From a virus, in IMG/VR virus record IMGVR_UViG_3300043772_004453, positions 1 to 25,050 of that record: a stretch of 25,050 nt of DNA; one strand, given 5' to 3'. A model generated the notes under the pieces. That model worked only from the letters and a program-made list of their open reading frames with translations. It was not told the origin of the DNA and searched no databases. A program made the translations under genes and the position numbers. Of this stretch, positions 455 through 24,724 are shown piece by piece; position 1 is the stretch's first letter, and every line of letters starts with the position of its first letter.

Positions 455-479
455 AAATCCCGAGAAATCGGGATTTTTT
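455..479 (+). terminator. Intrinsic (Rho-independent) terminator after nrdA
   Basis: A perfect 7-bp stem (ATCCCGA at 457-463 with TCGGGAT at 468-474) is closed by a GAAA tetraloop and followed by a run of T (474-479). Two A bases at 455-456 can extend the stem into the T tract. It starts 3 bases after the nrdA stop codon and separates the nucleotide-metabolism gene from the structural block. Confidence 0.9.
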
Positions 480-521: not shown

Positions 522-529
522 TATTTATA
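522..529 (+). promoter_or_regulatory. TATTTATA motif upstream of gp25-like gene
   Basis: TATTTATA ends 3 bases before the ATG at 533. The same heptamer TATTTAT is found in every intergenic gap over 20 nt in this window. It is a candidate late-promoter core or translation-initiation element. The very short spacing here would imply a nearly leaderless mRNA if it is a promoter. Confidence 0.45.
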
Positions 530-532
530 AGT

Positions 533-988
533 ATGGCAAATGGAACAACATACGGCATAAATTTTCCTTTCAGAAATTCATTGACAGGTAATTATTTGGA
601 TTTATCTGAAACTAAAGACGAAGAAGTAAGGACTAATTTAATTCACTTATTATTAACAAGAAAAGGTACTAGATACTTTTTACCTGATTTTGGCACTAGA
701 TTATACGAATACATTTTCGAACCTTTGGATGGACCAACATTTTCTGAAATTGAAGCGGAGATAAGACAATCCGCAGAAAAATACATACCAGGTGTTAAAA
801 TAACCAAGATTGATGTTTTCGATGCTTCAACTGAATACGAAGAGTCTGGTACCGTAGTTACAAACGGACAAAAAGAATTCAAAGTAACTAACATTTCAGA
901 AAAAGAACATACCGCAAAAGTCAAAATAGATTATATAATAACAGATGGTGCTTTTGAATCATCAGATTTCATAATTATTAATATTTAA
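533..988 (+). CDS. Baseplate wedge protein, gp25-like (GPW_gp25 / lysozyme-like fold)
   Basis: 151 residues, slightly longer than T4 gp25 (132 residues). Seen: the family signature around residues 35-65, 'LLLTRKGTRYFLPDFGTRLY' followed by '.YIFEPLD', matching the conserved 'G.R...P.FG..L....F' pattern of gp25 homologues from T4, P2 (gpW) and contractile injection systems. In those particles gp25 sits in the inner baseplate wedge, contacts the gp6/gpJ-type protein and helps nucleate sheath assembly. The next gene is exactly such a gp6/J protein, 5 nt downstream, which strongly supports the call. The C-terminal ~50 residues after 'KITKIDVF' form a polar beta-like extension. ATG at 533 is chosen because it gives the family N-terminus; no Shine-Dalgarno is visible. 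The TATTTATA motif directly precedes it. Confidence 0.9.
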   Translation: MANGTTYGINFPFRNSLTGNYLDLSETKDEEVRTNLIHLLLTRKGTRYFLPDFGTRLYEYIFEPLDGPTFSEIEAEIRQSAEKYIPGVKITKIDVFDASTEYEESGTVVTNGQKEFKVTNISEKEHTAKVKIDYIITDGAFESSDFIIINI

Positions 989-993
989 AAAAT

Positions 994-2832
994 ATGTCAA
1001 ACAAAAAAATATCCTACACAACAAGAGATTTTCAATCAATTAGGACTGAATTAATAAATTTTGTAAGAACATATTATCCTGATTTAATCCAAAATGTAAA
1101 CGATGCTTCAGTTTTTTCGGTTCTTTTAGATTTGAACGCAGCGGTTAGTGATAATCTACAATTCAATATAGATAGAAGTATTCAAGAAACAGTCCTTCAA
1201 TACGCACAACAAAGGTCTTCTATTTATAATATTGCAAGAACATACGGACTAAAAATACCTGGATTAAGACCATCAGTAGCATTGGTCGAATTTTCAATTA
1301 CTGTTCCACCATACGGAGATAGAGAAGATTTAAGATACTGTGGTATAATTAGAAGAGGGGCTCAAATTACAGGTGCGGGTCAAGTTTTTGAAACGGTTAA
1401 CGATATTGATTTTTCATCCAATTTTGATTCAGATGGTAATCTTAATAGAACAAAAGTCCCAATTTTTGATGGTAATAATATTATTACATCTTATAGAATC
1501 ACAAAAAGAGAACCTGTGGTAAATGGTATCACAAAAGTATTTAAAAGAGTAGTAAACGCTAATGATGTAAAACCATTTTTTGAGATGTTTTTACCTGAAA
1601 AAAATGTATTAGGTGTAACAAGTGTTTTACTTAAAGACGGAACACAATATGCGAATGTTCCGACAGTACAAGAATTCTTAGGTTTAGAAAATAGATGGTA
1701 TGAAGTTGATGCTCTTATACAAGATAAAGTGTTTATTGAAGACCCAACTAAACCAACCGATAGACCGGGAATAAAAGTAGGTAGATATTTACAAACCTCA
1801 ACTAAATTTATAACGGAATACACACCCGAGGGATTTTTCAAAATGACTTTTGGTGGAGGAAGTCAATCTACAGACGAGTTACTACGAGAATTTGCAAGAA
1901 ACGGAACTCCACTAAATTTACAAAAATACTCAAACAATTTTGCTTTAGGTAGCACCCTAAAATCAAACTCAACAATCTTTGTTCAATACAGAGTTGGAGG
2001 CGGTTTGGTAAGTAATTTAGGTGTTAATGTTATTAATCAGGTTTCAAATGTATCTTTTGATGTGAATGGTCCAAACGAATCAACAAATACTAATGTAATA
2101 AATTCATTGATTTGTAATAATATTACTGCGGCAATAGGAGGATTAAATACTCCAACAGTTGAAGAAGTAAGAAACTATGTTACATACAATTTTGCGGCAC
2201 AAAATAGAGCGGTAACCGTTAACGATTATGAGGCTGTTATAAGAAATATGCCGTCAAAGTTCGGGGCTCCGGCCAAAGTATCTATAACCGAAATAGATAA
2301 TAAAGTCGTAATACAATTACTATCTTACGATAATAATGGAAAATTATCTGCTGTAATATCACAAACATTAAAAAATAATTTGGCGAATTACTTATCTAAT
2401 TATAGAATGTTAAATGACTATGTAAGTATAACCACTGCTGAGGTAATCGATTTGAAATTTGATATTTCAGTAGTATTGGATTCTTCACAAAACCAAGGAG
2501 CGGTTGTCTCAGAAATAATAAATGTAATCACAAATTATTTTGACCCTGGTAATATAGAATTGGGTTCAAACGTTTATATATCTGACATAAGAAGAAACAT
2601 ACAGAGTATCAACGGAGTAATTTCTTTGGCAAATGTAGAAGTGTTCAATTTGGTTGGAGGTCAATACTCCTCGTCTCAAACATCACAAAGATATGCTATC
2701 GCACCGGTTAGACAAATTGAGTTAATTGATGATACTATTTTTGCTCAACCAAATCAAATCTACCAAGTTAGATTCCCCGGTAAAGACATCTTAGTGAGAG
2801 TTAAAAACCAACAGACGGTTAATTTTTCTTGA
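994..2832 (+). CDS. Baseplate wedge protein, gp6 / Baseplate_J-like
   Basis: 612 residues, close to T4 gp6 (660). The N-terminus 'YTTRDFQSIRTELINFV' and the following helix-rich part resemble the start of gp6/J proteins ('DF..I...L..y....yP'). At residues about 400-420 lies 'AAQNRAVTVNDYEAVI', the most recognisable Baseplate_J signature (R-A-V-T-x-x-D-Y-E). It is followed by the usual C-terminal alternation of beta strands and helices ('DFDI', 'YISDIRRNIQSINGV'). In T4 this protein forms the wedge dimers that make the baseplate's iris ring and bind gp25 and gp7. It follows the gp25-like gene after 5 nt and so is probably cotranscribed with it. Stop is TGA. No odd features apart from the lack of a Shine-Dalgarno. 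Confidence 0.88.
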   Translation: MSNKKISYTTRDFQSIRTELINFVRTYYPDLIQNVNDASVFSVLLDLNAAVSDNLQFNIDRSIQETVLQYAQQRSSIYNIARTYGLKIPGLRPSVALVEFSITVPPYGDREDLRYCGIIRRGAQITGAGQVFETVNDIDFSSNFDSDGNLNRTKVPIFDGNNIITSYRITKREPVVNGITKVFKRVVNANDVKPFFEMFLPEKNVLGVTSVLLKDGTQYANVPTVQEFLGLENRWYEVDALIQDKVFIEDPTKPTDRPGIKVGRYLQTSTKFITEYTPEGFFKMTFGGGSQSTDELLREFARNGTPLNLQKYSNNFALGSTLKSNSTIFVQYRVGGGLVSNLGVNVINQVSNVSFDVNGPNESTNTNVINSLICNNITAAIGGLNTPTVEEVRNYVTYNFAAQNRAVTVNDYEAVIRNMPSKFGAPAKVSITEIDNKVVIQLLSYDNNGKLSAVISQTLKNNLANYLSNYRMLNDYVSITTAEVIDLKFDISVVLDSSQNQGAVVSEIINVITNYFDPGNIELGSNVYISDIRRNIQSINGVISLANVEVFNLVGGQYSSSQTSQRYAIAPVRQIELIDDTIFAQPNQIYQVRFPGKDILVRVKNQQTVNFS

Positions 2833-2854
2833 TGATTTATTTTTGAGAAGCCTG

Positions 2855-2879
2855 TTCTATTATTTTAGATAAAATAGAA
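2855..2879 (+). other. Weak AT-rich imperfect hairpin between gp6-like gene and the giant structural gene
   Basis: TTCTA at 2855-2859 pairs with TAGAA at 2875-2879, and TTTT at 2863-2866 pairs with AAAA at 2871-2874, with a 3-nt bulge and a 4-nt loop. It has no GC-rich stem and no good T run after it, so it is at best a weak terminator or processing site. It lies just upstream of the TATTTATC motif at 2887. Confidence 0.2.
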
Positions 2880-2886
2880 TAATTAC

Positions 2887-2894
2887 TATTTATC
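2887..2894 (+). promoter_or_regulatory. TATTTATC motif upstream of the giant structural gene
   Basis: TATTTATC ends 13 bases before the ATG at 2908, in the 75-nt gap that follows the gp6-like gene. The run of A after it (2895-2901) resembles that after the copy at 12191. It is the second of five intergenic copies and a candidate start of a transcription unit running to about 12183. Confidence 0.45.
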
Positions 2895-2907
2895 AAAAAA
2901 ATAATTG

Positions 2908-3336
2908 ATGCCGAAAACAATTAGAATAAGAACCGATGTTGGTCAGAATACCTCAAAACAATTAAATGTTAATTTAGAACAGGATTTTGATTTCTTAGAG
3001 ATTTTATCTTTAAAATTATTACAAAGTGATGTTTATATAAAACAATGTTCCGATTACGGAGTTATTGTAGGTAGAGTTTTAGTGAATAATGGTTATGGAA
3101 TACCAAATGCTAAAATTTCAGTTTTCATACCATTACAAGAAGAGGATGAAGACAATCCTATAATAACGGCTATATATCCTTATAAAACAGTTGCCGAGGT
3201 AAATGAAGATGGTTATAGATATAATTTATTACCTTATGAACCTAGTTACCCTGGACACCAAGCAACAGGAACTTTTCCAAAAAGAGAAGATGCTCTGACC
3301 AATAAAACTGCGGTCCAATTATTTGACAAATACTAG
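2908..3336 (+). CDS. N-terminal part of giant virion protein (ends at in-frame TAG; continues in frame at 3337)
   Basis: 142 residues to the TAG at 3334-3336. I prefer ATG 2908 over the TTG at 2905. Residues about 1-50 ('RIRTDVGQNTSKQLNVNLEQ..') are of unknown function. From residue about 51, 'YGVIVGRVLVNNGYGIPNAK' begins a segment resembling the carboxypeptidase-regulatory-like/Cna-B type beta sandwich ('G.V....g.pi.nA.v.v..p'). That fold normally closes with 't.e.GdF...gvp.Gtq.l.v', and exactly that sequence appears after the TAG, in the same frame ('TNESGDFMIFGVPVGTQT'). The domain is therefore cut in half, so this is not a natural small gene but the start of the protein at 3373-8406. It may be expressed by stop-codon readthrough, may be truncated by a mutation, or the TAG may be a sequence error. 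Confidence 0.75.
   Translation: MPKTIRIRTDVGQNTSKQLNVNLEQDFDFLEILSLKLLQSDVYIKQCSDYGVIVGRVLVNNGYGIPNAKISVFIPLQEEDEDNPIITAIYPYKTVAEVNEDGYRYNLLPYEPSYPGHQATGTFPKREDALTNKTAVQLFDKY
3334..3336 (+). other. In-frame TAG inside the giant structural gene: readthrough, recoding or point mutation
   Basis: Codon 143 counted from ATG 2908. The frame is open on both sides (2908-3333 and 3337-8406), with no start codon or intergenic signal right after it. The TAG sits in the middle of a carboxypeptidase-regulatory-like domain, in the context 'FDKY-stop-KFTVQT'. All the other complete genes here end in TAA, or TGA in two cases, so this is the only TAG used as a codon or stop in the supported genes. One base change from a Tyr (TAT/TAC) or Lys (AAG) codon would produce it. 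Confidence 0.8.
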
Positions 3337-3372
3337 AAGTTCACAGTTCAAACCAATGAAAGTGGTGACTTT

Positions 3373-6300
3373 ATGATTTTTGGTGTTCCTGTTGGAACTC
3401 AAACATTAGTTATGGATGTTGATTTATCTGATATTGGTGAGTTTTCTCTTTCACCCCAAGATTTGATAAGAATTGGTTTGGCGACCCCTAGTCAAATTGA
3501 TGGCACCGTTTTTAAGACATCTGAAAATTTAAATATTTTACCACAAATTATAAATGTTGTAAGAACTATTGAAGTTGCACCTTTTTGGGGCGACCCTGAA
3601 ACGTGTCAAATTGCTATTACTCGAACTGATTTTGATTTAGGATTAGAAGCCAATTTAGATATACAACCTGCGGCGATTTTTATGGGTTCACTCATATCGA
3701 CCCCTGAAGAACAGGCTCAAAAAAGAAAATGTAAAGTCAATAAAAATGCCGGTAATCTATGTTCATTAGTAAGCGGACCTGGCCAAATTAAGGCTATTAG
3801 GCAAACAATATTTGAAGATAGTTTAGGTAGACCATCATTAGAACCGTATAATTTCGAAGATGATGGTAATGTTATAGATGAAAACGGTACTTGGTTGTTG
3901 GATGTCCCAATGAATATGGACTACATAACAACAGATGAGTTTGGTCAAAGAATAATATCTAACGACCCTAAAATCGGTATTCCATCTTCCGCAAAATATA
4001 GATTTAAAATTAAATGGCAACAACAACCAACTTTAAGTGAACCGGTTAAGAGAGGTTATTTCTTAGTACCCAATATTAGGGAATATGGTTGGGAAAATTC
4101 ATCTAGCGACCCAAGTGAATACGAGTTTCCAAATAATTCTATATTGAACGGAACTCAATTCATACAGTTCGCAACACTACAAAATCTAGGACTACCCACA
4201 GACACTCGAAATGTTAATTTTCTTAGTTCAATACCTAATTCACAAACGGCAGTAGTAAAAGTTATAAATACAACAAATGTTAGTGATTACTTTTTTACAC
4301 TTAACGGTGTACCAATACCACAGAAAGATAATATTATTGTCGATAATAATGACACCTTAACGGTTACAATAACTTTCGATGATAGAACTCAGCAAATTAT
4401 ATCGGGGGATATGTCTATAAACTTTGAACCCTACGAAAAATTCCAAGTTGAACGGTCATATTCTTTTAGTTTGTCTTGGGATGATTATGCAGAGCCACAG
4501 GCGGCTATTGATTGTGACGACACTTTTTATGAAATGAGATACAATAAAGTATATACTGTATCTCAAATTATCGACCAATATAGAAAAGGATTTTCAAATA
4601 CTAAGTTCTTAAGTATTAAAGATATTACCGACGATAACTGTCAATCAACTTCGAATCCATTCCCAACTAACGACGCTCAATATAAGACAACAACTTTATA
4701 CTTGTTGTTTTCATTTATGACTTTGATATTTAAACCTATCTTATTCGTACTTTTAATAATAAGCCACGTAGTTGCTTTTTTATTAAAATATATAATGTAT
4801 CCATTAGTAGTTGTAATTGCGGTAATATTCTTGATAGTGATTTTATTATGCAATGTCGTAAAGGGTATTGCTAGTATTTTTGGTGGTGGTGATAATATAA
4901 ATTGTCCTGATTTCGGAGATTTAAGAGATTTAGTTCGAGACCTATTACAATTATGGAAAAAAATGATTATCAGATTACCCAATCTGACTTATCCTGATTG
5001 TGAACTTTGTGAATGTATTGATGAAGATGCTCAAGATTATGAAGGTGACCCATATGCTAGCCAGTCAAGTGGATTGACGCAAAACGCTCCTTCAGGGTTA
5101 ATGTACGAGTTTTCAAATATATACCAATATAAAAATATTCAAAACGAAACAGGTAATAATATTTGTTGTCCTACTGAAGATGACTGTGATACTGATAATT
5201 GGGAAGATGATTCAGAGATTTGTGATGCTAAAGTATTGGCGGTACAAGTATCTTTAGGAGGTTCAGGGGGACCAGCATATTCTGTCGGAGGACCTAACGT
5301 TATAGATTCAGACAGTCCTTCCCTACCTAAAAGAGGATGGTTTTCAACGTCACTACCGATTGCAGAAAGAATAAATCTATTTAATGCGAAATCAAAATTC
5401 TTTCAATCAGATGGGATTAATAGGATTAGGGCGAGCTTTGAACCTGACCAAAAACCAACATCTAACCCTAATTTGTGTCACGAAGATAATGTAGTTATTA
5501 TTGTTATAGATAAAAATCAAATTTCACAATATACCCCAGGGCAACTTATATCATTTCAAGATGCTAACTTATCTGGTGATATTAATGTTAGAAATTTGGT
5601 AACAGGTCAAACAATTAGCGGTTCAACACAAATTAATGTTCCTTTTGCTGATAGTTCAAATCCTAATAATCTTAACTTATCAAGGGATTACGTAGTTAAC
5701 ATAACAGGTTCAACAACGCCTCAAGTTAAATTTCCAATGGACATTGAGTATCACCAAGTAATTTATGCAAAAACCTTATTAGAAATAAAAAATGAATCTA
5801 CACAGAATAATAATTCTTTCTTTGGTAAAGTTTTTTTACAAGGTAACTACTTAAATCGTGTTAGGTATTTAGGTGCTTGGGATATTGATGAATTTTTAGA
5901 AATGGTTCCTGCAACACTCAATGGTAAATATCCTTACGAGTTAATTGAAGGTTGGCAAGATTTGGGAGTATTAGTTATGGTTAGAGGTGTTGACCCGCAT
6001 ACACCAAAAGTGGACATTCAGTATGATATAAGTAATTTATTAGGACAACCTATTGGAACTAGAATTGTAAGGGGTGACTTCCACCTAAATATCCCCATTC
6101 AGAGTGGTGGATATAGATGTGTGAGACATCAAGAGATTTCAAATAACAATGACACTGATACCATCGGTAATAATTTATACTTCCCAACCTTCAATCCGTT
6201 AAATATTAACCAACAAAAATTTACAAGTTATACCACTAATTTACATTCATATTACGTCAGTTTAGATTCAACAAGTTCTATATCAGCCTATATACCTGGT

Positions 6301-8406
6301 TACGAAGGTAATAATGAGTTTAGGTGTGGAACAGGGATAATCAACTTAGGTAATAATGGTATCACTATCTTTAATAATACTATCGCTAATGAAGATGCTA
6401 TTAATGGTTTTCCAAATACCCCTAATGCTATCGGTTCAATATACGCTAACGTTAACGATGGTAATGGAATCACACCAACAACAGACCATAGCGAAACAGG
6501 ATATTTACTAAATGAAAAAGTTGAGGGATGTAGTTATGCTCATCTATCTTTTTGTGGTATTGATTCTGGTAATAATATACTTTTTGGTGCTAACGCAATA
6601 GAATACGGTGTTCAGGGTATATATCACTCAGTGAAATATCCCGTAGAAACTACTATGAATATTGAGCATAGTCCTCAATCTAGATATGTTATGAGGTCTG
6701 ATAGATTACCAACGTCAACATACGATTATCCTTTGGGTGACAATCATATGGCGTTACAACAAAATACAGGATTTGCAATATACAAGATATCCGAAGACGG
6801 AACATTTGCATCAAGTGGTTCTTTTCCTGGCGGCGGCGGCGGATTTTACGGTGATTCTACAGGTGATAATGTTTCAGGAGCAACTGAACCTAAATTCGTA
6901 AATGAAGTTTTAGAGTCGTTTACTTGTGGTGAAACAAATTCCACACTAGTTCCATTTGGTTGTTATGAATATAATGCCTTAGAGGGAACAATAGTTGTAG
7001 GTGATAGGGATGTTTGTACGTTCAAAAACCCTGGAAATGTACAGTATTTTAAAAACAATTGTTACCAAATGGTAACAAAACCACTAATATCTCTACCTGT
7101 GGATATATTAACACTCACTGAGTGGTTATCAAGAATTAAAGTTTTCTTTGGTTTATGTCAAGGTGTTTTTAGACATATGTTTACTAATAGTTGGATTAAT
7201 GGAACATTGTTTGCCTTTTCATTTAAAAACGACCGATTCTTTGATACTCGATATAACAGACCCTACAATAAAACTTGTAAGGACACTGTCTATTTCCATA
7301 GACCAACAAATAACTTCTTTTATAGAAGTAGTCCTTATAAAAATGGTGATTTCATAGGTAAAGATTCACCACAACCATTAATTAATTTATTTGGATTGTT
7401 AGATTATTTTGGAGGTAATATGAAAAATCTAATGTTCCCAACGACCTTAATGGACTTAGGCCCAAGGGACGAAATTTCTAAGTTTTTAAGTCAAAGCGCT
7501 TCTGAAGAATATGAAGGTTATGTGGTAAATAAGATACCAACAACAACATTTAATGAAATTGATGAAATCCTTAATTTATTTATAATTTCAAGATTAGGTA
7601 ACTCCAATTTCCTACAACAGTTTTTTGGTGCAGGAGGTGCTAGCATCTTAAGTTATTTTACAAGAGAAAAATCTGTTAATAGTTATTATCAAGGACCATA
7701 TGATTATAACGTAAAGAATAAAAATATGGTTGATTCGGATTACGCTCAACTTATCTCAATTAATTCTGAATTTGGGGTAGTTCCATTTGATATTGAAAAT
7801 TATCCTAGTGACCCAACCACGACACAACAAGAAACGATATATTTTAATGGTGACCCACAGGCGGGTGATGCGGTTATAGGAATTTTCTTTTCATCGTATA
7901 CTCAAAACAGAGATTTTATATCACCAAAAAGGATTGTATATAATCAATCAGCACCTTTGGATGCCAATAGTTGTAATTTAAATCCTATACCAATTAGAGA
8001 CCAACAAGTCCCATTTTATCAATGGACAATAGAAAATAATAACGACAGTAACAACATATTTGGAACTCAAAAAGGACATTGGTACACGGTAGGGATTTCA
8101 AATGGAGTTGACAATTTTCATAGTTTTAATTATCAATCATTGGATAGGTTAACATCACAATCAAGATTCTTTAGAACTACAAATCCAGCTCAAGCTGATT
8201 TTTATAAAGGGTATATTTATTCTGTAAATAGTAATGGTGCAATAACCGCTGATACATCTTTTACCGATTCTGCAACTATATTAAATGGTAATAATGTAGT
8301 TACTGCCGGTGGACCATTTTTCTTTTATTTTGGATTAAACAGAGGAGCATCTGCTATGGATAGATTTATGACAAAATGGGTTAATACTGACAATGCCGTT
8401 GACTGA
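3373..8406 (+). CDS. Giant virion structural protein (main part), with hydrophobic membrane-like segment
   Basis: 1,677 residues from ATG 3373, or about 1,832 if joined in frame to 2908-3336. The start at 3373 is internal to a beta-sandwich domain ('GDFMIFGVPVGTQT'), so the true start is probably 2908. Its place right after the gp25 and gp6-like genes suggests a baseplate or tail-associated protein. Seen: a domain-closing 'DVDLSDIGEFSLSPQDLIR'; residues 442-496 (nt 4696-4860), a nearly uncharged run with 'ILFVLLIISHVVAFLL' and 'LVVVIAVIFLIVILLC' that looks like two or three membrane helices; directly after it an amphipathic stretch and Cys clusters ('DCELCECIDED', 'NICCPTEDDCD'); and a Gly run (residues about 1153-1157) encoded by a GGC repeat. 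The rest is beta-rich and Asn/Gly-rich, as in fibres. TGA stop, overlapping the next ATG by one base. The function is not recognised; the structural role is inferred from context. Confidence 0.82.
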   Translation: MIFGVPVGTQTLVMDVDLSDIGEFSLSPQDLIRIGLATPSQIDGTVFKTSENLNILPQIINVVRTIEVAPFWGDPETCQIAITRTDFDLGLEANLDIQPAAIFMGSLISTPEEQAQKRKCKVNKNAGNLCSLVSGPGQIKAIRQTIFEDSLGRPSLEPYNFEDDGNVIDENGTWLLDVPMNMDYITTDEFGQRIISNDPKIGIPSSAKYRFKIKWQQQPTLSEPVKRGYFLVPNIREYGWENSSSDPSEYEFPNNSILNGTQFIQFATLQNLGLPTDTRNVNFLSSIPNSQTAVVKVINTTNVSDYFFTLNGVPIPQKDNIIVDNNDTLTVTITFDDRTQQIISGDMSINFEPYEKFQVERSYSFSLSWDDYAEPQAAIDCDDTFYEMRYNKVYTVSQIIDQYRKGFSNTKFLSIKDITDDNCQSTSNPFPTNDAQYKTTTLYLLFSFMTLIFKPILFVLLIISHVVAFLLKYIMYPLVVVIAVIFLIVILLCNVVKGIASIFGGGDNINCPDFGDLRDLVRDLLQLWKKMIIRLPNLTYPDCELCECIDEDAQDYEGDPYASQSSGLTQNAPSGLMYEFSNIYQYKNIQNETGNNICCPTEDDCDTDNWEDDSEICDAKVLAVQVSLGGSGGPAYSVGGPNVIDSDSPSLPKRGWFSTSLPIAERINLFNAKSKFFQSDGINRIRASFEPDQKPTSNPNLCHEDNVVIIVIDKNQISQYTPGQLISFQDANLSGDINVRNLVTGQTISGSTQINVPFADSSNPNNLNLSRDYVVNITGSTTPQVKFPMDIEYHQVIYAKTLLEIKNESTQNNNSFFGKVFLQGNYLNRVRYLGAWDIDEFLEMVPATLNGKYPYELIEGWQDLGVLVMVRGVDPHTPKVDIQYDISNLLGQPIGTRIVRGDFHLNIPIQSGGYRCVRHQEISNNNDTDTIGNNLYFPTFNPLNINQQKFTSYTTNLHSYYVSLDSTSSISAYIPGYEGNNEFRCGTGIINLGNNGITIFNNTIANEDAINGFPNTPNAIGSIYANVNDGNGITPTTDHSETGYLLNEKVEGCSYAHLSFCGIDSGNNILFGANAIEYGVQGIYHSVKYPVETTMNIEHSPQSRYVMRSDRLPTSTYDYPLGDNHMALQQNTGFAIYKISEDGTFASSGSFPGGGGGFYGDSTGDNVSGATEPKFVNEVLESFTCGETNSTLVPFGCYEYNALEGTIVVGDRDVCTFKNPGNVQYFKNNCYQMVTKPLISLPVDILTLTEWLSRIKVFFGLCQGVFRHMFTNSWINGTLFAFSFKNDRFFDTRYNRPYNKTCKDTVYFHRPTNNFFYRSSPYKNGDFIGKDSPQPLINLFGLLDYFGGNMKNLMFPTTLMDLGPRDEISKFLSQSASEEYEGYVVNKIPTTTFNEIDEILNLFIISRLGNSNFLQQFFGAGGASILSYFTREKSVNSYYQGPYDYNVKNKNMVDSDYAQLISINSEFGVVPFDIENYPSDPTTTQQETIYFNGDPQAGDAVIGIFFSSYTQNRDFISPKRIVYNQSAPLDANSCNLNPIPIRDQQVPFYQWTIENNNDSNNIFGTQKGHWYTVGISNGVDNFHSFNYQSLDRLTSQSRFFRTTNPAQADFYKGYIYSVNSNGAITADTSFTDSATILNGNNVVTAGGPFFFYFGLNRGASAMDRFMTKWVNTDNAVD

Positions 8407-10202
8407 TGGGAGTAAATGAGACATATAAAATCGTTTTAGGTTCCGCAAGAAGTGCGGAATCTTCAGATGTTGATTCTAGAATTGGGTTAAATTTAGAACA
8501 ACAGTTCAGACAAGATGCGGAATTCGAAAGAATACAAGATATAAATTTGGCTGAATTATTTTTCCAAGAAAGACAAAAATCTGACATTTTCAGACCATCA
8601 ACAAAAATTACATTTTTATTTGATAATTCTTATATTGGGGAAACTACTTACGGTCCATTTAAAAATAATTTATATTATGTTAATGCTGCCTCCTCATCTA
8701 TTAATAGTTGTTTAACTAATCAACCTGATTCTATATTTTGGTCAGGATACCCCCAATATTTTGAATTTGATTTAATAAGAACGGATAAAAACGTACAAGG
8801 ATATACTATCCAACAAACCAATCCTCCGTTGCTACCCCATATAGATTTTGAAACATCAAAAGCCGGTTTTTATAATTGGAATTTTTATCTAAGTTATGCG
8901 TATGAAAATGACTCTAATAAGTTCTTACAGTGTCAAAATTTGTTTTATCCAAATATAGCACATACTTGGGTTAGCGGTGATGGGATACCATTTGTTATTA
9001 AAAATGGGGCGTATAATGGACATCCTGTTATTTTTTTATATTGTAGTTTAAAACACAATTTAAATGTTGGTGAATTTGTTGAGTTGTCATTTTCATATAA
9101 TAACAATAACTTATTTTCTGTAGATTATTTGGGTGATGGTTCTTTTGATTCTGAATTATATGTCGTAGGTTTGGTTGATGTTGGTTATTTAGGTAATACA
9201 TTTAGTGACAATGTCACAGGAACTTTTAAAAGAGTTATCAATTCTGAACACCCTGTTGATACTAGGTCTACGTATTATGTTAGAAAACACAAAATATTAA
9301 CAAATCCTGAAGATGCGGTTATAACAAATGCTGGATTTGAATTGAACCCGTTCCCACCCGAAAAAAAATTCGAACCACAACAACTCACGCCAAATAAAAA
9401 GGAAAGATTGTCGATTAAAAATAATTCTCAAACATATACATTGTCTTTCAATAAAGACATCAGATTAAATGGGTTAGTTGATAATCAATTAAGACCTGTA
9501 ACCGAATTATTTTTCACTAATATTTGGATTGGAACTTTTGGTTGGACTATGAAACCCGTTATAAATAACATAGGTTTAAGACAAGGTTATAGTTTCAATC
9601 TACCTCTAATAAATACCAGACCAAGTCCTTGGTGGGAATCAAATTTACAACAATTAAATATTGGTTCCCTTACAAGTATAACATTACAAAATTATACCAA
9701 AGGAGGTAAAACTTTTTACTATAATAAACCACCAATAAATGGTGATGTTTTGGATGGTGCTCTATGTGAATGGAATGATTATGATTTAAACGAAGTTGAA
9801 CTTAGTCAAGTTTACCACAAGTTCACTTTTAATGATAACGTATTTAATATAAACTTAGGACCATCAGCAGGGTCCAATTCAAACCCATTTGGTTATTATT
9901 ACGAGCCATTTAACAAAATAAAAATTAAGGACTTCTCATCTTATATTGAAGAGGGCGAGGCTCAACAAGTTGCGGGAATACCTAACTACGCTGTTTATTC
10001 GGAAAATTCTTTATCATTCAGATGGAGGGATATTTATGATTATGGTTTTGTGGACGAAACTAATGCAGGGGTTAATTATCCTTTTTTAAATGGGGTTCAT
10101 TATCCTTTTGAATTAACAACTTTCAGGTTAATCCCAGAAGGTTCAAACGAAAATGTGTTCATAAACATAATACAAGACCCAACTATCGATGAATGTGAGT
10201 AA
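8406..10202 (+). CDS. Putative virion structural protein, unknown function
   Basis: 598 residues, starting in a TGATG overlap with the preceding gene, so translation is probably coupled. I do not recognise a known family. The N-terminus contains 'LNLEQQFRQDAEF' and then 'ELFFQERQKSDIFRPSTKI'. This loosely resembles the start of the giant protein at 2908 ('VNLEQDFDFLEIL...LLQSDVYIKQ') and may be a shared attachment region. The remainder is rich in Asn, Tyr, Phe and Gly with short alternating strands, as in tail-spike or fibre proteins, and has no signal peptide or membrane helix. The C-terminus ('IQDPTIDECE') overlaps the next gene by 14 nt. A role in the tail or baseplate is inferred only from its neighbours. 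Confidence 0.8.
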   Translation: MGVNETYKIVLGSARSAESSDVDSRIGLNLEQQFRQDAEFERIQDINLAELFFQERQKSDIFRPSTKITFLFDNSYIGETTYGPFKNNLYYVNAASSSINSCLTNQPDSIFWSGYPQYFEFDLIRTDKNVQGYTIQQTNPPLLPHIDFETSKAGFYNWNFYLSYAYENDSNKFLQCQNLFYPNIAHTWVSGDGIPFVIKNGAYNGHPVIFLYCSLKHNLNVGEFVELSFSYNNNNLFSVDYLGDGSFDSELYVVGLVDVGYLGNTFSDNVTGTFKRVINSEHPVDTRSTYYVRKHKILTNPEDAVITNAGFELNPFPPEKKFEPQQLTPNKKERLSIKNNSQTYTLSFNKDIRLNGLVDNQLRPVTELFFTNIWIGTFGWTMKPVINNIGLRQGYSFNLPLINTRPSPWWESNLQQLNIGSLTSITLQNYTKGGKTFYYNKPPINGDVLDGALCEWNDYDLNEVELSQVYHKFTFNDNVFNINLGPSAGSNSNPFGYYYEPFNKIKIKDFSSYIEEGEAQQVAGIPNYAVYSENSLSFRWRDIYDYGFVDETNAGVNYPFLNGVHYPFELTTFRLIPEGSNENVFINIIQDPTIDECE

Positions 10203-11016: not shown

Positions 11017-11019
11017 AAG

Positions 11020-12183: not shown

Positions 12184-12190
12184 ACTTAAC

Positions 12191-12198
12191 TATTTATT
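12191..12198 (+). promoter_or_regulatory. TATTTATT motif upstream of the 12209 gene
   Basis: TATTTATT is followed by an A-rich run and ends 10 bases before the ATG at 12209. It is in a 25-nt gap, the first gap longer than 20 nt since 2908, so it probably begins the transcription unit 12209-19891. Third of five intergenic copies. Confidence 0.45.
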
Positions 12199-12208
12199 AT
12201 AAAAAAAA

Positions 12209-13111
12209 ATGGCAACAGGAGCATATGGAACAATAAGACCGGCAGACGTTTCACCAGAGGACGTTGAAATCTTACTTCATTACACACCAAGTAGGGATGA
12301 AACAAGTAATTTTACACTAACAACGTTAGAATCATCAGTTCTTACGCCTTATTTTAATAACAATAACACTAATGGAACATCTGTAGAGTTATTAGGTGGT
12401 TTATATAATTTGAAACTTCCTGTTGAAAATTTTAATCAACTTGGAATTTATACAGTTTATTTGAGACCTGCAGAAATAAGAACATCTATTGCAGATTGCG
12501 GTGTTCTATCATCTTTACCAAATGTAAAGGGATTAATTTTTGATATAAATCAAGTTCCTGTTATATATCAAAATAAATTTACTTCCCAAGGATTGGTTGG
12601 TTTCAGGATTGAATACATAAACCCTGATGGAACTAAAGTGCCAAACTTTTTTAGATTAATCACTTCTAGTTTTTATTGTGAGCCTGTAAACCAAAATCTA
12701 ACAAACACAAATCAATCCGTTGTTAGATGGAGATATGTTGATGGACCGACTAATTATATTTTTTGTACACTATCACCATCCACCTCACCAGCAACTAAAC
12801 CAAACGCAACACCTTATATTGGTCAACCCGGACAAAATGTGGTAATAACCAATACATTTTTTAATCCTATATCGGTAGAAATTGAAATGGTTGAACACGA
12901 CGCTTCCACTTTAGCAATCGCGTTATTCGGCAATCAAACCAAATCTATGGATGACGGTATTTACACTCTCTACAACGAACAAAATCTTATTTATAAACAA
13001 TATAACCTTTATGAGGTTAGAGATAGTTTGAACAAGTTGTTGTTTGAGGTTAGAGAAAATAGAGGAACTGATATAGATTACAGTAAAAACTTCAATAATA
13101 TTACTCAGTAA
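12209..13111 (+). CDS. Putative virion structural protein, unknown function
   Basis: 300 residues, starting at ATG 12209 after an A-rich leader. No family is recognised. The start 'MATGAYGTIRPADVSPEDVE' is well ordered and the body is beta-rich ('LGIYTVYLRPAEI', 'LVGFRIEYINPDGT'). Near residue 195 there is a short Pro/Ser/Thr stretch ('STSPATKPNATP'). The C-terminus turns helical and charged ('QYNLYEVRDSLNKLLFEVRE'), which could be an oligomerisation or docking helix. It overlaps the next gene by one base (TAATG), which suggests that its product and the 996-residue protein are made in a fixed ratio. A tail or baseplate role is inferred from context. Confidence 0.8.
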   Translation: MATGAYGTIRPADVSPEDVEILLHYTPSRDETSNFTLTTLESSVLTPYFNNNNTNGTSVELLGGLYNLKLPVENFNQLGIYTVYLRPAEIRTSIADCGVLSSLPNVKGLIFDINQVPVIYQNKFTSQGLVGFRIEYINPDGTKVPNFFRLITSSFYCEPVNQNLTNTNQSVVRWRYVDGPTNYIFCTLSPSTSPATKPNATPYIGQPGQNVVITNTFFNPISVEIEMVEHDASTLAIALFGNQTKSMDDGIYTLYNEQNLIYKQYNLYEVRDSLNKLLFEVRENRGTDIDYSKNFNNITQ

Positions 13112-18887: not shown

Positions 18888-18892
18888 TTAAA

Positions 18893-19891
18893 ATGAATTC
18901 AGTAACTATAAATACCATTTCTTTAAATCCTAATTATCAAATTTATATTTGTGATATTTATGGAAATAACTGTGTTTTTGTTGCGTTAATTCCGATTAAC
19001 GTGCCTCCGGCGATAACATTATCTTTACCGTCGCAATTTGTTAACTCGCCTGCTGTAGGTGTGAAAATATTTAATGGCTCAATCTGTGAAAAATTTGAGG
19101 TTATAATTTGTGACTCACTACTACCTCCTGCATCATCAACACCAACAAATACACCGACGCCAACAATAACTCCGAGTATTACTCCATCAGTAGGGTTATC
19201 ACCGACCCCAACACCAACAAAAACACCAACTCTAACGCCAACAAAAACACCAACTGCGACTGTGGCACCAATTATGTGTTTTAATATGGTGAATCAAAAT
19301 ATTGCTAATGGTAACTACAGTTGTAGTTTGTCCCCAAGTGGGATTCTGAATGGTAAACCATATTATGGTATTTTATTTTCTGACTGTTCGACATCAACTA
19401 ATTCTATCGTTGTATGGAATCCGACCACAAATAGATGGGAGCATATAGGTTCTGGTGGAGTGGTTATTGCTTATAATTTTAATCCTGATTATTACCCATA
19501 CACTGATGGAACTTACAGTTGGATTAATAATATTATAACGGCAATTGCTTTTAGGATTTTAACCTCAAACGCTGGAGTTTGCCCATCACCTACTCCAACA
19601 AGAACACCTACACCAACTAGAACTCCCGCATTTTCACTTTTAATTAACAGTGTTAAAGGGACTATAAGTTGTCTTAGTAGATACACACTTTCATCCACAA
19701 GTAGTTTTAATTTTTATATAAATGCTGCATCAACATTCTGTCCTACTTGCACTGTTCAAATTTTCAGTGACTCTAATTTAACAACACCAATAAGTGTAGT
19801 GACTAATTTTATAGTTAATACAAATCAAATTTGGATATGTAACTCTTCAGGTAACTCAACTTACTTCGGAACTTTAAGTGAGCCTTGTTAA
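18893..19891 (+). CDS. Modular fibre/adhesin protein with two Thr/Pro linkers
   Basis: 332 residues, starting 5 nt after the preceding gene. Order seen: an N-terminal domain (about 1-78; 'YQIYICDIYGNNCVFVALI'); a Thr/Pro linker (about 79-126); a middle module (about 128-228) with 'NGKPYYGILFSDC' and 'IVVWNPTTNRWEHIG'; a short linker 'PTPTRTPTPTRTP' (about 231-246); and a C-terminal domain (about 248-332) containing 'FNFYINA', 'VQIFSDSNLTTPI' and a final Cys. The middle module is related to one in the 23341 gene, and the C-terminal domain to the end of the 16101 gene. It appears to be a short member of the same adhesin set. Its specific ligand cannot be told. A 97-nt gap follows it. Confidence 0.82.
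   Translation: MNSVTINTISLNPNYQIYICDIYGNNCVFVALIPINVPPAITLSLPSQFVNSPAVGVKIFNGSICEKFEVIICDSLLPPASSTPTNTPTPTITPSITPSVGLSPTPTPTKTPTLTPTKTPTATVAPIMCFNMVNQNIANGNYSCSLSPSGILNGKPYYGILFSDCSTSTNSIVVWNPTTNRWEHIGSGGVVIAYNFNPDYYPYTDGTYSWINNIITAIAFRILTSNAGVCPSPTPTRTPTPTRTPAFSLLINSVKGTISCLSRYTLSSTSSFNFYINAASTFCPTCTVQIFSDSNLTTPISVVTNFIVNTNQIWICNSSGNSTYFGTLSEPC
19128..19270 (+). repeat. Thr/Pro-rich linker coding repeat
   Basis: Encodes 'STPTNTPTPTITPSITPS', a short break, then 'SPTPTPTKTPTLTPTKTPT'. The DNA has near-identical CCAACAAAAACACCAACT-type units at 19213 and 19240. A second, shorter linker of the same kind lies at 19579-19635. Confidence 0.85.
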
Positions 19892-19988
19892 AATAATACT
19901 TAACAAACGTTTATTTACTTATTACTCCAATTATATTTTTTTGTGTGTCAAAACGCAATAATCAATATTTATAACAAAAAAACAATTA
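19892..19988 (+). other. 97-nt intergenic region
   Basis: The longest gene-free stretch in the window. It holds an 8-bp palindrome AAACGTTT (19905-19912), a T-rich tract (19935-19942) and TATTTATA at 19966-19973. No convincing intrinsic terminator stem is visible, so transcripts from upstream may continue through it. Confidence 0.6.
19966..19973 (+). promoter_or_regulatory. TATTTATA motif upstream of the 19989 gene
   Basis: TATTTATA ends 15 bases before the ATG at 19989 and is followed by the same A-rich type of leader seen at 2887 and 12191. Fourth of five intergenic copies; candidate start of the unit 19989-24696. Confidence 0.45.
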
Positions 19989-22900
19989 ATGGCAATTTAT
20001 TACGGAACAGATTGTAGTTTAGGTACGGTTAGAATAAGTTCTAATCAAGTATTATCAACAGGAAATTTATACTATCTTGAATGTTTATCTCCTAATTTGT
20101 CAACTGTTTATTTGTGTGTATCTAACGTAACGAGTAAACAACCAATCCCCTCTCCGGCCGTTACCTATACTGTAGTTGCTCTTATTAATAGCACGACAAC
20201 TACAAGTTGTTCTTGGTGCGCAACTGCGGGTCAGACAGGTGGAGAACCAAGCGGAGGTGGAGGAACTGTAATTCAATTACCAAGTTTTACCCCAACACCA
20301 ACTAAAACAGTTACACCAACTAAAACTCAAACTCCAAGTGTTACCAAAACTCAAACTCAGACACCTACCCAAACCCCCACAAATACAAAGACACCTACCC
20401 AAACCCCCACAAATACAAAGACACCTACCCAAACACCAAGTATAACCCCTACCAAAACAACGACCCCAACTCCTACCCCAACTCCATTAGTTAACCCAAC
20501 TACTTTTTCCGCCTGTTGTGAACCTTTTGAAAAGTTCAATATTGATGGTTTGCCGGGTGAATTATCGATAGGTTCGGTATATAATGTTCAAATACCGGCA
20601 GGTTTTGTTGGTTGCGCGAGTGTAATCGCTTTCACCCCAGGACTTACAACTTACCCTCATACATCAGTTTTACTTGAAGGGGAAACTAGTTGTGAAAGTT
20701 GTCAGGCGAGTAATCCTTGCTCTGCAGTATCTCAAACACCGACGCCAACCAATACCAAAACACCTACTCAGACGCCAACCAATACCAAAACGCCTACCCA
20801 AACACCAACAACAACCCCAACTCCTACCCAAACACCAACAACAACCCCAACTCCTACCCCAACCGCCACCCCAACCGCCACTAAAACTCCTACACCGACA
20901 CCAACCCCAACAATAACACTAACCCCAACTTGTTATTGTATGGAATATTCAATAACACCTGCAGGTGTTGGTGGGTTTATAACACTAACTTATTTCGAGT
21001 GTTGTGTTGAAACACCAGGAGAAATAACAACCACAATTACCTACCCTAATTCAACAACAATATATACATCAACAACTCCGGTTATTGAGGATAATAATAA
21101 TTATGATGTTACTCCTGAAGGACCTATAACACCTAATCCTGGTGCTAGTCCAAACCCAACATCGCCAGCCACTCAAACGCCTACACCTACTAAAACGAAT
21201 ACCCCAACACCATCATACTCATCGGTACCGTCTAATATACCTCAAACAGATATACGAATTATAAGTGCTAATGAATGTGATGTTATAGTGTCCAATCCTT
21301 TAACAGTAGAATGTGTGGTTGCTGATTGTAATAATCAAAATTGTAATGGTTGTGACCCTGATTATGATTGGTTATCTTTAAATGACGGAACAAATAAGTG
21401 TGTTGCAACAATCACACAATCAGCCACACCCCCAACTAATACATTTACGTTATACCAAAAACAGAATGGTCAATATTCGATTAATGGTGGTAGAGTATAT
21501 GTAAATGGATATAATATAGATGGTTCAGGCACAAACCCAATTCTATTAACTAACTCTGCATTCAGAGGGATTATGAATACTTGTGCTCTTTGGACAAATG
21601 ATGTTGATAGTGGTGGTAATTATGCACCGGTTAGACAGTGGTTAGGTTTCAGTTATTGTATCAATATAACTGAAACTAAAACCTATTATATTGGAATGGG
21701 TGCAGATAACGACATACAATTCAGAGTCGACGGAGAAACCAAAATAAACACTTACTTGGTTAACCCCCAAGGAGGAGGAGACCAAAACACCTTTAAATGG
21801 TGGAATATTTATCCGATTGAAATATCGGCAGGTTCTCACATTATAGAAGTTTTGGGATTAAATAGAGGTAGTGTTGCGGGTTTTGGTTGTAAAATTTACA
21901 ACCCACCAAGTTTACAAGTATTCACCGCAATGACCACAACAACTCAGTTAGATTCTGTTACTGTTTTTGATAGTAAAAATTATTTTGGTAATATTGCTGA
22001 CGTTATTTTAACAACAGGCGGAACATATACAACTTCGGGATATAGTTGTCCTGACGGGTTTACTTATTGCTCAGGACAATGTTCAAAAAATATATATTGT
22101 CAAAACGAATGTAATGGTGGAACTATCGAGTTATTAATTGCCGGAGGAACGCCACCTTATAAAATTTCTTGGAATAACGGAAGTAACCAAAGGATATTAA
22201 CTAATGTTTTACCTGGACAATACACCGCAGTTGTAACAGATTATGCTTGGAATGGTGTTTCCGATTATACTGCAACAACAACTTGTTCTATAACTGAACC
22301 CCAAGTTGATTGTTTTGCAGGTGCTAGTTTTACCGAGTTTACGGTCACTCAAACACCAACACCAACACCTACCCAAACACCAACAAACACTCCAACACCT
22401 ACCGTAACACCATCGACACCGGTGGAGAACTGTACGATACATGTCCCTTATTATGCATCAAGTAACTACTCAACGCCAATTGGATTAAAATATAATCCAT
22501 CTAACAATAGTTTATATATTTGTAATTTTGGTTCGGATTATGTATCTGTGATGAATTGTTCCACTGATACTATTGTAGGGCAATTCTATATAAAAGGTAA
22601 AGCGTATAGTATAGACTATTGCTCAACTAATAATTGTATGTATGTAGGAGGACTTTCACAGGTATCGGTTATTAATTGTACTACAAATACTCTTGTTATA
22701 GAATTAACAATACCAAAAACTGGTTTAATAAAAACTATAAGATATAATTCTGTCAATAATAACATGTATTTCGTTATTGATGACGAGTGTTTTAACATAG
22801 ATTGTGGTAGTAACACATTAATTGGTGGTTCAATTTTACTACCAGAAGCTTCTTCAGAACCTTGGTTAGAATTTAAACCAACAACTAATAAATTATATTA

Positions 22901-23339
22901 CTCTAGTTTTGATGCTAATAATATTACGATTTTAGACCCTCTTACATCTTCAGTTTTTGGTACGATATTAACACCTGGCTCTGAACCTAGTTACTCTAAA
23001 GTATTAGGTAATCTATTGTTTGTATCTGCACCTACTACGAATCAGATGTTAGTTATTAACACAACAACAAACACTATTACTAATACTGTAAATGTGAATT
23101 CACCATCAGGTATTGCAATTTATAACGGAAATGGTGTTCTTTACATTGGTGATAACAGTAACAATAATATCAATGTCATATCAGATAGTGTATTCAATGT
23201 AATTGAAACAATTACAAACGCTAATAGTCCATTAGTTTTGGAATTAGCGAATAACTTTACGACTAGAAAATTATATTTTAGTAATCAAACGTCATTAAGT
23301 ACAAATATAGGTATTATTTGTTTACCACCACCAGCATAA
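19989..23339 (+). CDS. Multidomain fibre/adhesin: Thr/Pro linkers, PA14-like lectin domain, SprB repeat, YVTN-type beta-propeller
   Basis: 1,116 residues. Order seen: an N-terminal beta domain (1-96); linker 1 (about 97-171); a 'FSACC' Cys-rich module (172-246) related to one in the 16101 gene; linker 2 (about 248-314); a small 'CYCMEYSITP' module; and linker 3 (about 383-415). A ~150-residue domain follows (about 484-640) with 'YYIGMGADNDIQFRVDGE' and 'GSHIIEVLGLNRG', resembling PA14/GLEYA-type carbohydrate-binding sandwiches. Next come one SprB-like repeat ('LLIAGGTPPYKISWNNGS', about 699-775), linker 4 (about 787-813) and a C-terminal half of YVTN/NHL-like propeller blades (about 814-1116; 'LKYNPSNNSLYICNFGSDYV' and 'MLVINTTTNTITNTV'). 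The lectin-like domain and the propeller suggest that it binds host surface glycans or proteins. Start ATG 19989 follows an A-rich leader without Shine-Dalgarno. Domain names are from pattern recognition only. Confidence 0.85.
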   Translation: MAIYYGTDCSLGTVRISSNQVLSTGNLYYLECLSPNLSTVYLCVSNVTSKQPIPSPAVTYTVVALINSTTTTSCSWCATAGQTGGEPSGGGGTVIQLPSFTPTPTKTVTPTKTQTPSVTKTQTQTPTQTPTNTKTPTQTPTNTKTPTQTPSITPTKTTTPTPTPTPLVNPTTFSACCEPFEKFNIDGLPGELSIGSVYNVQIPAGFVGCASVIAFTPGLTTYPHTSVLLEGETSCESCQASNPCSAVSQTPTPTNTKTPTQTPTNTKTPTQTPTTTPTPTQTPTTTPTPTPTATPTATKTPTPTPTPTITLTPTCYCMEYSITPAGVGGFITLTYFECCVETPGEITTTITYPNSTTIYTSTTPVIEDNNNYDVTPEGPITPNPGASPNPTSPATQTPTPTKTNTPTPSYSSVPSNIPQTDIRIISANECDVIVSNPLTVECVVADCNNQNCNGCDPDYDWLSLNDGTNKCVATITQSATPPTNTFTLYQKQNGQYSINGGRVYVNGYNIDGSGTNPILLTNSAFRGIMNTCALWTNDVDSGGNYAPVRQWLGFSYCINITETKTYYIGMGADNDIQFRVDGETKINTYLVNPQGGGDQNTFKWWNIYPIEISAGSHIIEVLGLNRGSVAGFGCKIYNPPSLQVFTAMTTTTQLDSVTVFDSKNYFGNIADVILTTGGTYTTSGYSCPDGFTYCSGQCSKNIYCQNECNGGTIELLIAGGTPPYKISWNNGSNQRILTNVLPGQYTAVVTDYAWNGVSDYTATTTCSITEPQVDCFAGASFTEFTVTQTPTPTPTQTPTNTPTPTVTPSTPVENCTIHVPYYASSNYSTPIGLKYNPSNNSLYICNFGSDYVSVMNCSTDTIVGQFYIKGKAYSIDYCSTNNCMYVGGLSQVSVINCTTNTLVIELTIPKTGLIKTIRYNSVNNNMYFVIDDECFNIDCGSNTLIGGSILLPEASSEPWLEFKPTTNKLYYSSFDANNITILDPLTSSVFGTILTPGSEPSYSKVLGNLLFVSAPTTNQMLVINTTTNTITNTVNVNSPSGIAIYNGNGVLYIGDNSNNNINVISDSVFNVIETITNANSPLVLELANNFTTRKLYFSNQTSLSTNIGIICLPPPA
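20361..20430 (+). repeat. Perfect 30-bp tandem repeat in linker 1
   Basis: Two identical 30-bp units at 20361-20390 and 20391-20420 start with ACACCTACCCAAACCCCCAC, and a third partial unit follows from 20421. Each encodes ten residues of the form TPTQTPTNTK. The perfect identity shows recent expansion or active recombination. Confidence 0.92.
20741..20860 (+). repeat. Two further 30-bp tandem duplications in linker 2
   Basis: Units 20741-20770 and 20771-20800 (starting GACGCCAACCAATACCAAAA) differ at two bases. Units 20801-20830 and 20831-20860 (starting AACACCAACAACAACCCCAA) differ only at the last base. All keep the ten-residue period seen in linker 1, so the 30-bp step is a preferred unit of length change. 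Confidence 0.9.
22347..22430 (+). repeat. Thr/Pro-rich linker before the propeller
   Basis: Encodes 'TQTPTPTPTQTPTNTPTPT' and a few more TP units. It separates the SprB-like repeat from the beta-propeller, and is less regular at DNA level than linkers 1 and 2. Confidence 0.85.
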
Positions 23340-23340
23340 T

Positions 23341-24696
23341 ATGAGATATTTTTATATAAAAATAACGGGAGGAACCTCCGCAGGACCTTACAACATTTAT
23401 TATGATGCTGTAGGAAACAATACTTTTGCTTCAGGTTATACAACAGGAACAAATGCAATTAACATAAGTTATAGTTCACTAACATCAGGTATAGGTTTTG
23501 CGGTAACAGTTCCTGATTCGGCAACATCTATCCTATTACTTAATACAATCAGTAATCCTGGTGGATGTGAACCTATTGTTTATTCTTTAGGTAGCCCACC
23601 TGTTTCATTACCAAACCTATGTTTTGAAGTTAGAAGAGGTTATTTTGGTTCTCTATCTCAATATGATTTTACACCTACCGACCAAATATATAACTCAAAA
23701 CCTGTTTGGAGTTCAACAACTTATAACATAAAATGGAACTCAACCAATCAATATTGGTTTGTTGAAAATTGGTCACCAGGTCAGATGATTACTAATAACC
23801 CATCGACACCACCAACCTCAGGTTGGGTGATTCTTGGTAATACAGATACTGTTAATGTTAAGGTGGGTGAATGTGCAGTAACACCTTTCAATATTAAAGA
23901 TGTTGTAATAACCAACCCAACTTGTTTAAACAACGGATGTAGCGGTGGGATAGAAATACAGATTGAAAATGCAACCCCACCTATTTTATATTCGATAAAT
24001 AACGGAACCACTACTTCTAACACACCATTGTTTACTAATCTATGCCCATCCACATATACCGTTTGGTCAAAAGATGCAAATAACCAAATCTCAACACAAA
24101 CGGTAACAATACCGGCTAGTAATAGTAGTATTACGGAATATAATTTAAGGCTTGAAACGACAACAACTACGACACAACAAGGTGGTAATGGAATAAATGA
24201 AACATACATAACCAAAAGGTTAGATTTTGTTGTAAGAGTGAAAGATGTAAATAATATTAATATATCTCAGTTACCTTCAGGAACTATTATAAATTTTGTT
24301 TTAACGCAGAGTAATGTTTATGATAGAACACCCACTGTTAATAATGGTGTGATAAACAGAACAATTTCTATACAGAAAAACGGAGTCGACTTATCTTTGA
24401 GTAACACAATTATTGACTCATCATTTAATGATACTAGACCTTCGTGTACCAGTAATTTGATATATAGAACAAATACTCAAAAAAATGCAAGTATCCAAAT
24501 CCAAGATAATGATGTTATAAGTGGTTATATAATTACACAGATAACTAAAATATTCCCATTTGGTCAAACCACCGGCTGTCCATTGGTAACTAGTGTTGAC
24601 AGTATACAATTAGATTCCGCAAGAATTCAAGGATGCACTTGTTGTTCTGTTAATATACCAAGAAATGAAGCACCAAGCATGACATCAACCTTATAA
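23341..24696 (+). CDS. Modular fibre/adhesin protein with SprB-like repeat
   Basis: 451 residues, starting one base after the preceding stop. Order seen: an N-terminal domain (1-85; 'FYIKITGGTSAGPYNIYYD', then 'FAVTVPDSATSILLLN'); a module (about 92-178) beginning 'CFEV', with 'NSKPVWSSTTYNIKWNSTNQ' and 'GWVILGN', related to the middle module of the 18893 gene; an SprB-like repeat (about 185-262; 'CSGGIEIQIENATPPILYSI'); and a C-terminal region (263-451) with a long beta-rich stretch ('LDFVVRVKDVNNI') ending in a 'GCTCCSVNIP' Cys cluster. It has no Thr/Pro linker, unlike its neighbours, but keeps a Thr-rich run ('ETTTTTTQQGG'). Likely a tail fibre or surface adhesin acting with the 19989 product. 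The C-terminal region is not recognised. Confidence 0.82.
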   Translation: MRYFYIKITGGTSAGPYNIYYDAVGNNTFASGYTTGTNAINISYSSLTSGIGFAVTVPDSATSILLLNTISNPGGCEPIVYSLGSPPVSLPNLCFEVRRGYFGSLSQYDFTPTDQIYNSKPVWSSTTYNIKWNSTNQYWFVENWSPGQMITNNPSTPPTSGWVILGNTDTVNVKVGECAVTPFNIKDVVITNPTCLNNGCSGGIEIQIENATPPILYSINNGTTTSNTPLFTNLCPSTYTVWSKDANNQISTQTVTIPASNSSITEYNLRLETTTTTTQQGGNGINETYITKRLDFVVRVKDVNNINISQLPSGTIINFVLTQSNVYDRTPTVNNGVINRTISIQKNGVDLSLSNTIIDSSFNDTRPSCTSNLIYRTNTQKNASIQIQDNDVISGYIITQITKIFPFGQTTGCPLVTSVDSIQLDSARIQGCTCCSVNIPRNEAPSMTSTL

Positions 24697-24712
24697 AAAA
24701 TGATTTGAAAGG

Positions 24713-24720
24713 TATTTATA
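24713..24720 (+). promoter_or_regulatory. TATTTATA motif upstream of the last gene
   Basis: TATTTATA ends 4 bases before the ATG at 24725, in a 28-nt gap. A weak Shine-Dalgarno-like AAAGG lies at 24708-24712, overlapping the upstream edge but too far from the ATG to be typical. Fifth of five intergenic copies. Confidence 0.45.
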
Positions 24721-24724
24721 CGTA

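Follow-up and report, generated by a model that had tools for sequence, protein, structure and literature searches.

The window analysed here is a 25,050-base piece of a virus from IMG/VR. Its genes all lie on the + strand, and several of them are preceded by the same heptamer, TATTTAT. Is this word a promoter, a translation signal or an accident of base composition, and if it is a promoter, what reads it? With genes called as simple ATG ORFs, the window contains the end of nrdA, gp25-like and gp6-like baseplate genes and other conserved structural-region genes. Searches of the window for tRNAs and Rfam families returned no match, and a scan for sigma-70-type promoters was uninformative, with 93 found versus 107 expected.

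An earlier note on this DNA had reported TATTTAT in every intergenic gap longer than 20 nt. All five such gaps (452-532, 2833-2907, 12184-12208, 19892-19988 and 24697-24724) indeed contain it, and the 40 nt ahead of each tightly joined gene are free of it. The copy at 522..528 (+) precedes the gp25-like baseplate wedge gene (533..988, +; PHROG 261, E 3.2e-16), which heads its transcription unit; a terminator-like hairpin with a T-run (455..476, +), the top-listed one in a terminator scan, lies after nrdA and directly upstream of this putative promoter. The gp6-like baseplate wedge gene (994..2832, +; PHROG 219, E 5.5e-26) begins 5 nt past gp25 and has no motif of its own. The other copies are found at 2887..2893 (+), before a large structural-region gene (2908..8406, +) with an in-frame TAG at 3334-3336; at 12191..12197 (+), before a conserved baseplate/tail-region gene (12209..13111, +) with at least 594 IMG/VR relatives; at 19966..19972 (+), before the gene for a repetitive TPTPT-rich protein (19989..23339, +); and at 24713..24719 (+), before a gene start truncated by the contig end (24725..25048, +). 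The motif ends 4, 14, 11, 16 and 5 nt before the respective ATG, rather than the 3-15 nt first given, and an in-gene copy reported at 8213 is at 8214.

The five sites follow one geometry. In three of them, which we assign to a putative short-leader class, TATTTAT is followed by four bases and AAA: at 2887 (TATTTAT-CAAA-AAA-ATAATTG-ATG), at 12191 (TATTTAT-TATA-AAA-AAAA-ATG) and at 19966 (ATATTTAT-AACA-AAA-AAACAATTA-ATG, the class 2 geometry of the relatives described below). In the two putative leaderless sites, at 522 (TATATTTATAAGT-ATG) and 24713 (GTATTTAT-ACGTA-ATG), it is followed by four to five bases and the ATG.

Gap composition makes all A/T words common; for this reason, each count is compared with dinucleotide shuffles or with copies in coding sequence. 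Over the whole window TATTTAT occurs 23 times versus 22.1 expected, a chance-level count, as the earlier note had it, and what one would expect if its presence in AT-rich gaps were accidental. The joint chance of finding it in all five gaps is 2.9e-7 under dinucleotide shuffling, and no other 7-mer is common to the five. Any 7-mer was common to them in 23/20,000 shuffled sets, so that the local evidence amounts to about p = 0.001 once the free choice of word is allowed for.

Related genomes provide a larger sample. Among the 549 gaps of four related IMG/VR contigs (G001-G004, environmental assemblies of 160-304 kb), TATTTAT is the top 7-mer, with 259 copies versus 41.2 expected from shuffled gaps. 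A comparison of this kind had been proposed in the earlier note, and when run on the full genomes of these relatives it showed that further late genes, too, have the motif upstream more often than shuffles predict. Still, an exact TATTTAT is missing from about half of all gaps above 20 nt, and short junctions and operon-internal genes are mostly devoid of it. The motif is also enriched in phage Mel-JY01 (19 versus 4.3); LR756508 shows no clear enrichment, and RM378 and S-PM2 were covered by a pattern scan only. No paper on a TATTTAT motif was found in the literature searched.

The motif is conserved before orthologous genes as well. TATTTAT precedes the gp25 ATG at 4-7 nt in 79/80 IMG/VR relatives, which do not represent 80 independent events because many are closely related, and most of the 80 have a second copy ~26 bp further upstream. 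It is present in 48/50 distinct upstream regions of the 2908-gene orthologues, nearly all at 14-17 nt from the ATG, and in 39/47 of those of the 24725-gene orthologues, mostly at 4-7 nt. For the 12209 gene it occurs within 70 nt in 37/60 orthologous upstream regions, at varying distances; the comparison covered these four genes. The enrichment over shuffled gaps, the conservation before gp25, the fixed geometry and the control with T4 (see below) refute base composition as the explanation, and its probability is close to nil. The association of TATTTAT with long gaps is thus real, and independent genomes confirm it.

We then asked which genes carry the motif. Late and early labels were transferred to the four contigs from T4 and from immuto, an isolated Flavobacterium phage whose gp25 and gp6 are distant relatives of those of the window, and gene copies with gaps longer than 20 nt were counted. 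The motif lies before 25/32 named late gene copies versus 6/30 early ones (p = 9e-6). The seven late copies without it include the hub gene in 4/4 contigs, and the early exceptions include the DnaB helicase gene, which has TATTTATC at 22-23 nt in 4/4 contigs. In immuto, the motif is found upstream of terL and the portal, sheath, tube, hub and tape measure genes, and none was found upstream of the SSB, recombinase, primase and nrd genes. Comparative evidence thus points strongly to TATTTAT acting as a switch for late (structural) genes; for the phage of the window itself, gene function suggests late timing.

The distance between the end of the motif and the ATG is bimodal, at 4-6 nt (class 1) or 12-17 nt (class 2). 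Either spacing is found for 24-34% of the starts that follow gaps, versus 0.1-0.5% of internal ATG codons. The As at +5 to +7 from the motif are mostly 80-100% conserved in class 2, where the AAA keeps a constant offset from the motif while the distance to the ATG ranges from 12 to 17 nt. In class 1, the ATG itself sits at the offset that AAA holds in class 2. N4-AAA follows 108/301 start-proximal intergenic copies of TATTTAT in the four contigs, versus 16/236 coding-sense and 7/258 antisense copies. Sequence logos of both classes displayed an A/T block 14-17 bp before the motif and no -35 hexamer; positions -15 and -16 from the motif are A/T in 94% of cases versus 65-71% in coding copies.

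These spacings bear on whether TATTTAT is rather a translation signal, i.e. an enhancer or standby site in the mRNA of hosts that do not use Shine-Dalgarno (SD) sequences. The motif is close to start codons, Bacteroidota lack SD sequences (PMC6847099), and SD frequency is only 2-4% in the four contigs and immuto. However, the AAA is locked to the motif and not to the ATG, as would be the case for a promoter at which the polymerase prefers to initiate on A; a signal for the ribosome would be expected to move with the ATG. Moreover, genes inside operons mostly lack the motif, as do replication genes, which are translated equally, and at gp25 most relatives have a second copy 26 bp farther away from the gene. 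Mel-JY01, recorded from Microcystis, has SD sequences before 28% of its genes (55% in T4); its motif is mostly located 32-43 nt upstream of late genes, with the SD in between. The motif persists, and what shifts with the translation system is how far it lies from the ATG. On the evidence of spacing and operon structure we reject the translation enhancer, which now seems extremely improbable. The earlier note had left the choice between a late promoter and such an enhancer; only the former is supported, as a sense-orientation late promoter that probably involves a phage-encoded factor.

The late promoter of T4, TATAAATA at -13 to -6, is read with the gp55 sigma, gp33 and the gp45 clamp (PMC1524935). 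In both systems the phages are T4-related, encode a gp55-like sigma and have an A/T-only 8-mer directly upstream of their late genes, and like T4-type late promoters the motif of this clade is located before virion genes, both in the four contigs and in immuto. Compared at the inferred positions that the two cores share, the clade consensus, ATATTTAT, complements TATAAATA base for base. If transcription started on the second A of the AAA, ATATTTAT would lie at -13 to -6, the place of TATAAATA in T4, and the A that is locked to the motif at +5 to +7 nt would fit such a core. T4-type late promoters have no conserved sequence in the -35 region. In contrast with T4, the clade core has an additional A/T block ~15 bp upstream, and the ATG is mostly 4-17 nt past the core rather than 20-30 nt. 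The same pipeline applied to T4 recovered TATAAATA, mostly at 20-30 nt.

We also considered the T4-type core in the clade and rejected it: TATAAAT occurs in 66/549 gaps versus 47.7 expected, without a sharp position peak, where the corresponding figures for TATTTAT are 260 and 44.6. The T4-type core is not clearly enriched in the sense orientation, and the earlier view that the element is distinct from that of T4 is supported. A changed late motif has a precedent in phage Aeh1, which has a CTAAATA late promoter alongside a diverged gp55 (PMC1524935). Aeh1 alters the first positions only, whereas this clade swaps A for T at every position; its motif would thus be a further, more extreme variant of this known kind. 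The late promoters of Ma-LMM01 differ from the TATTTAT motif.

The candidate reader is a gp55-like protein of ~250 aa encoded in G001 and G002; the window is a fragment without this gene, and the evidence on the sigma comes from the related phages. The protein weakly matches T4 gp55 (E 7e-6 in a search of 148 reference proteins), as well as PHROG 234, 'late sigma transcription factor', in 27/32 members (best E 2.4e-4), and has homologues in immuto (E 6.6e-15), Mel-JY01 and, despite its lack of a clear TATTTAT enrichment, LR756508. Its predicted model is of moderate quality (mean pLDDT 73.7, pTM 0.39). No match to it was obtained with Foldseek at E <= 0.001, and the fold assignment rests on realignment to sigma region 2 (4lup; Z 9.3, rmsd 2.6 A over 91 residues). 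Such Z values call for caution with helical proteins; the matches listed were almost all sigma factors, and T4 gp55 (7d7c) was not among them. G001, G002, immuto and Mel-JY01 thus appear to encode remote members of the gp55 sigma family. In contrast with T4, gp45 (PF02916) and gp33 (PF16805) were not recognised, with nothing over the cut-off in five genomes, although such a search may overlook diverged versions. As a rule, the gene for the gp55-like protein has no TATTTAT upstream, as expected if its product is made before the late genes. Neither a gp55-like sigma nor the AAA downstream and the A/T block upstream of the motif had been foreseen in the earlier note, and the same goes for the pair of spacing classes and the leaderless arrangement.

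Alternatively, the promoter might be read by an RpoD-like sigma akin to SigA of Bacteroidota, either that of the host or the 266-aa copy of the phages, with TATATTTA as a variant of the TAnnTTTG box. Such a sigma is encoded in each of G001-G004 (PF04542, E about 1e-18), its nearest cellular relatives are mostly from Bacteroidota, and TATATTTA departs from the host -7 box in the last base only. In addition, another group of sites in immuto consists of GTTG followed ~20-25 nt later by TATATTTAGGTA. The Bacteroidota housekeeping promoter (-33 TTTG / -7 TAHHTTTG; PMC6847099) shares with the late motif a TAnnTTT core and AT-rich surroundings, but it has a final G, which the late motif lacks, its core being TATTTAT by selection and in the logo. 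Furthermore, class 2 sites do not conserve the T at position one. Host-type TAHHTTTG boxes form a class of their own (74 gaps versus 27 expected) and tend not to occur together with TATTTAT, the two sharing 15 gaps versus 35 expected. Both immuto and Mel-JY01 carry the motif and the gp55-like protein without a recognisable RpoD-like sigma, which makes the latter the less likely reader. Mel-JY01 was recorded from a cyanobacterium, and TAnnTTTG is not a box that cyanobacterial SigA would be expected to recognise. We thus regard an RpoD-like reader as unlikely. Taken together, the phage RpoD-like sigma, the lack of SD sequences, the TAHHTTTG boxes and the host of immuto indicate that the host belongs to Bacteroidota.

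Very probably, then, TATTTAT is the core of a late promoter in T4-related phages, mostly of Bacteroidota, most likely read by a gp55-like sigma, with transcription starting on an A. The fuller form of the core would be ATATTTAT, preceded at 14-17 bp by the A/T block and followed by an A at ~+5 to +7 nt. Most likely, the phage-encoded gp55-like sigma, whose identity we infer, directs the host RNA polymerase to this core, and transcription would begin on an A ~5-6 nt past the motif. The enrichment of the motif, its orientation and its association with late genes, like the two spacing classes, the motif-locked AAA and the A/T block, are results of sequence statistics, from which the start site is probably as proposed and many messages would start at the start codon. 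In class 1, transcription would start on the first base of the ATG or up to 1-2 nt ahead of that base, yielding a leaderless mRNA, and in class 2 on the AAA ~10 nt before the ATG.

Leaderless bacterial genes of the TA-led type have a -10-like box ~10-12 bp before the start codon and are taken to give leaderless mRNA (PMC3160421). Class 1, in which the motif ends 4-6 nt before the ATG, has a similar box-to-start-codon distance, with a -10-like box ~10 bp before the start codon. TA-led genes have host promoters and are prominent in Actinobacteria and Deinococcus-Thermus, whereas a phage late class is concerned here. Class 1 messages, predicted to be leaderless or nearly so, would also be unlike those of Flavobacterium johnsoniae, in which 87% of predicted transcripts have leaders longer than 10 nt (PMC6847099).

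At poxvirus late promoters, polymerase slippage generates an untemplated poly(A) 5' leader. Slippage on the AAA might similarly add such a leader to class 2 late mRNAs, those of class 1 starting on the ATG, an idea that we put forward as a long shot. If true, one sigma would make two kinds of late mRNA, and the A-rich leaders would suit the ribosomes of SD-less Bacteroidota.

The motif offers a late-gene signal readable from the genome for abundant, nearly uncultured freshwater T4-related phages, and KNV73_gp118 of immuto, annotated only as hypothetical, becomes a candidate sigma factor. The late promoter core of these phages would be swapped base for base from that of T4 with a sigma of apparently the same family. 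The co-evolution of sigma and promoter, and the use of leaderless late mRNAs in SD-less hosts, thereby become directly testable.

Most of the gp25 upstream regions of the 80 IMG/VR relatives (L009-L088) carry two copies of TATTTAT, the proposed late promoter core, with a spacing of 26 bp, and AA frequently stands at the start offset of the upper copy. These pairs are perhaps tandem late promoters. The gp25 upstream region of the window contains a single TATTTAT copy only.

The large structural-region gene at 2908-8406 of the window is interrupted by an in-frame TAG at 3334-3336, where close relatives have a tyrosine (sequence comparison, DKY*KF in the window versus DKYYKF). None of the listed genes of the window has TAG as its terminal stop; the in-frame codon may represent a nonsense change, an assembly error or readthrough. 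Also in the structural region, three large proteins encoded at 16092-23339 of the window contain repeats of the TPTPTPTKTPTPT type.

The isolated Flavobacterium phage immuto has a second promoter-like set, AGTTG(C) followed after ~20-25 nt by TATATTTAGGTATCAATAATTAAAAC, which precedes some 16 mostly small genes (L146-L148; record positions of about 22, 61-63 and 67-76 kb). This set looks like an early promoter of the host-type -33/-7 kind.

The four large related contigs G001-G004 encode a 266-aa RpoD-like sigma factor of the Bacteroidota type (L139-L142), which shares about 40-44% identity with cellular SigA along most of its sequence. G004 also has a gene for a 183-aa ECF-like sigma factor (G004:C1:136740-137291, minus strand), whose own ATG is preceded by TATTTAT at 4 nt. 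In each of the four contigs, TATTTATC is conserved 22-23 nt upstream of the DnaB helicase gene, a replication gene. The AAA is missing from its usual offset, and this putative site could function as a middle or dual-use promoter.
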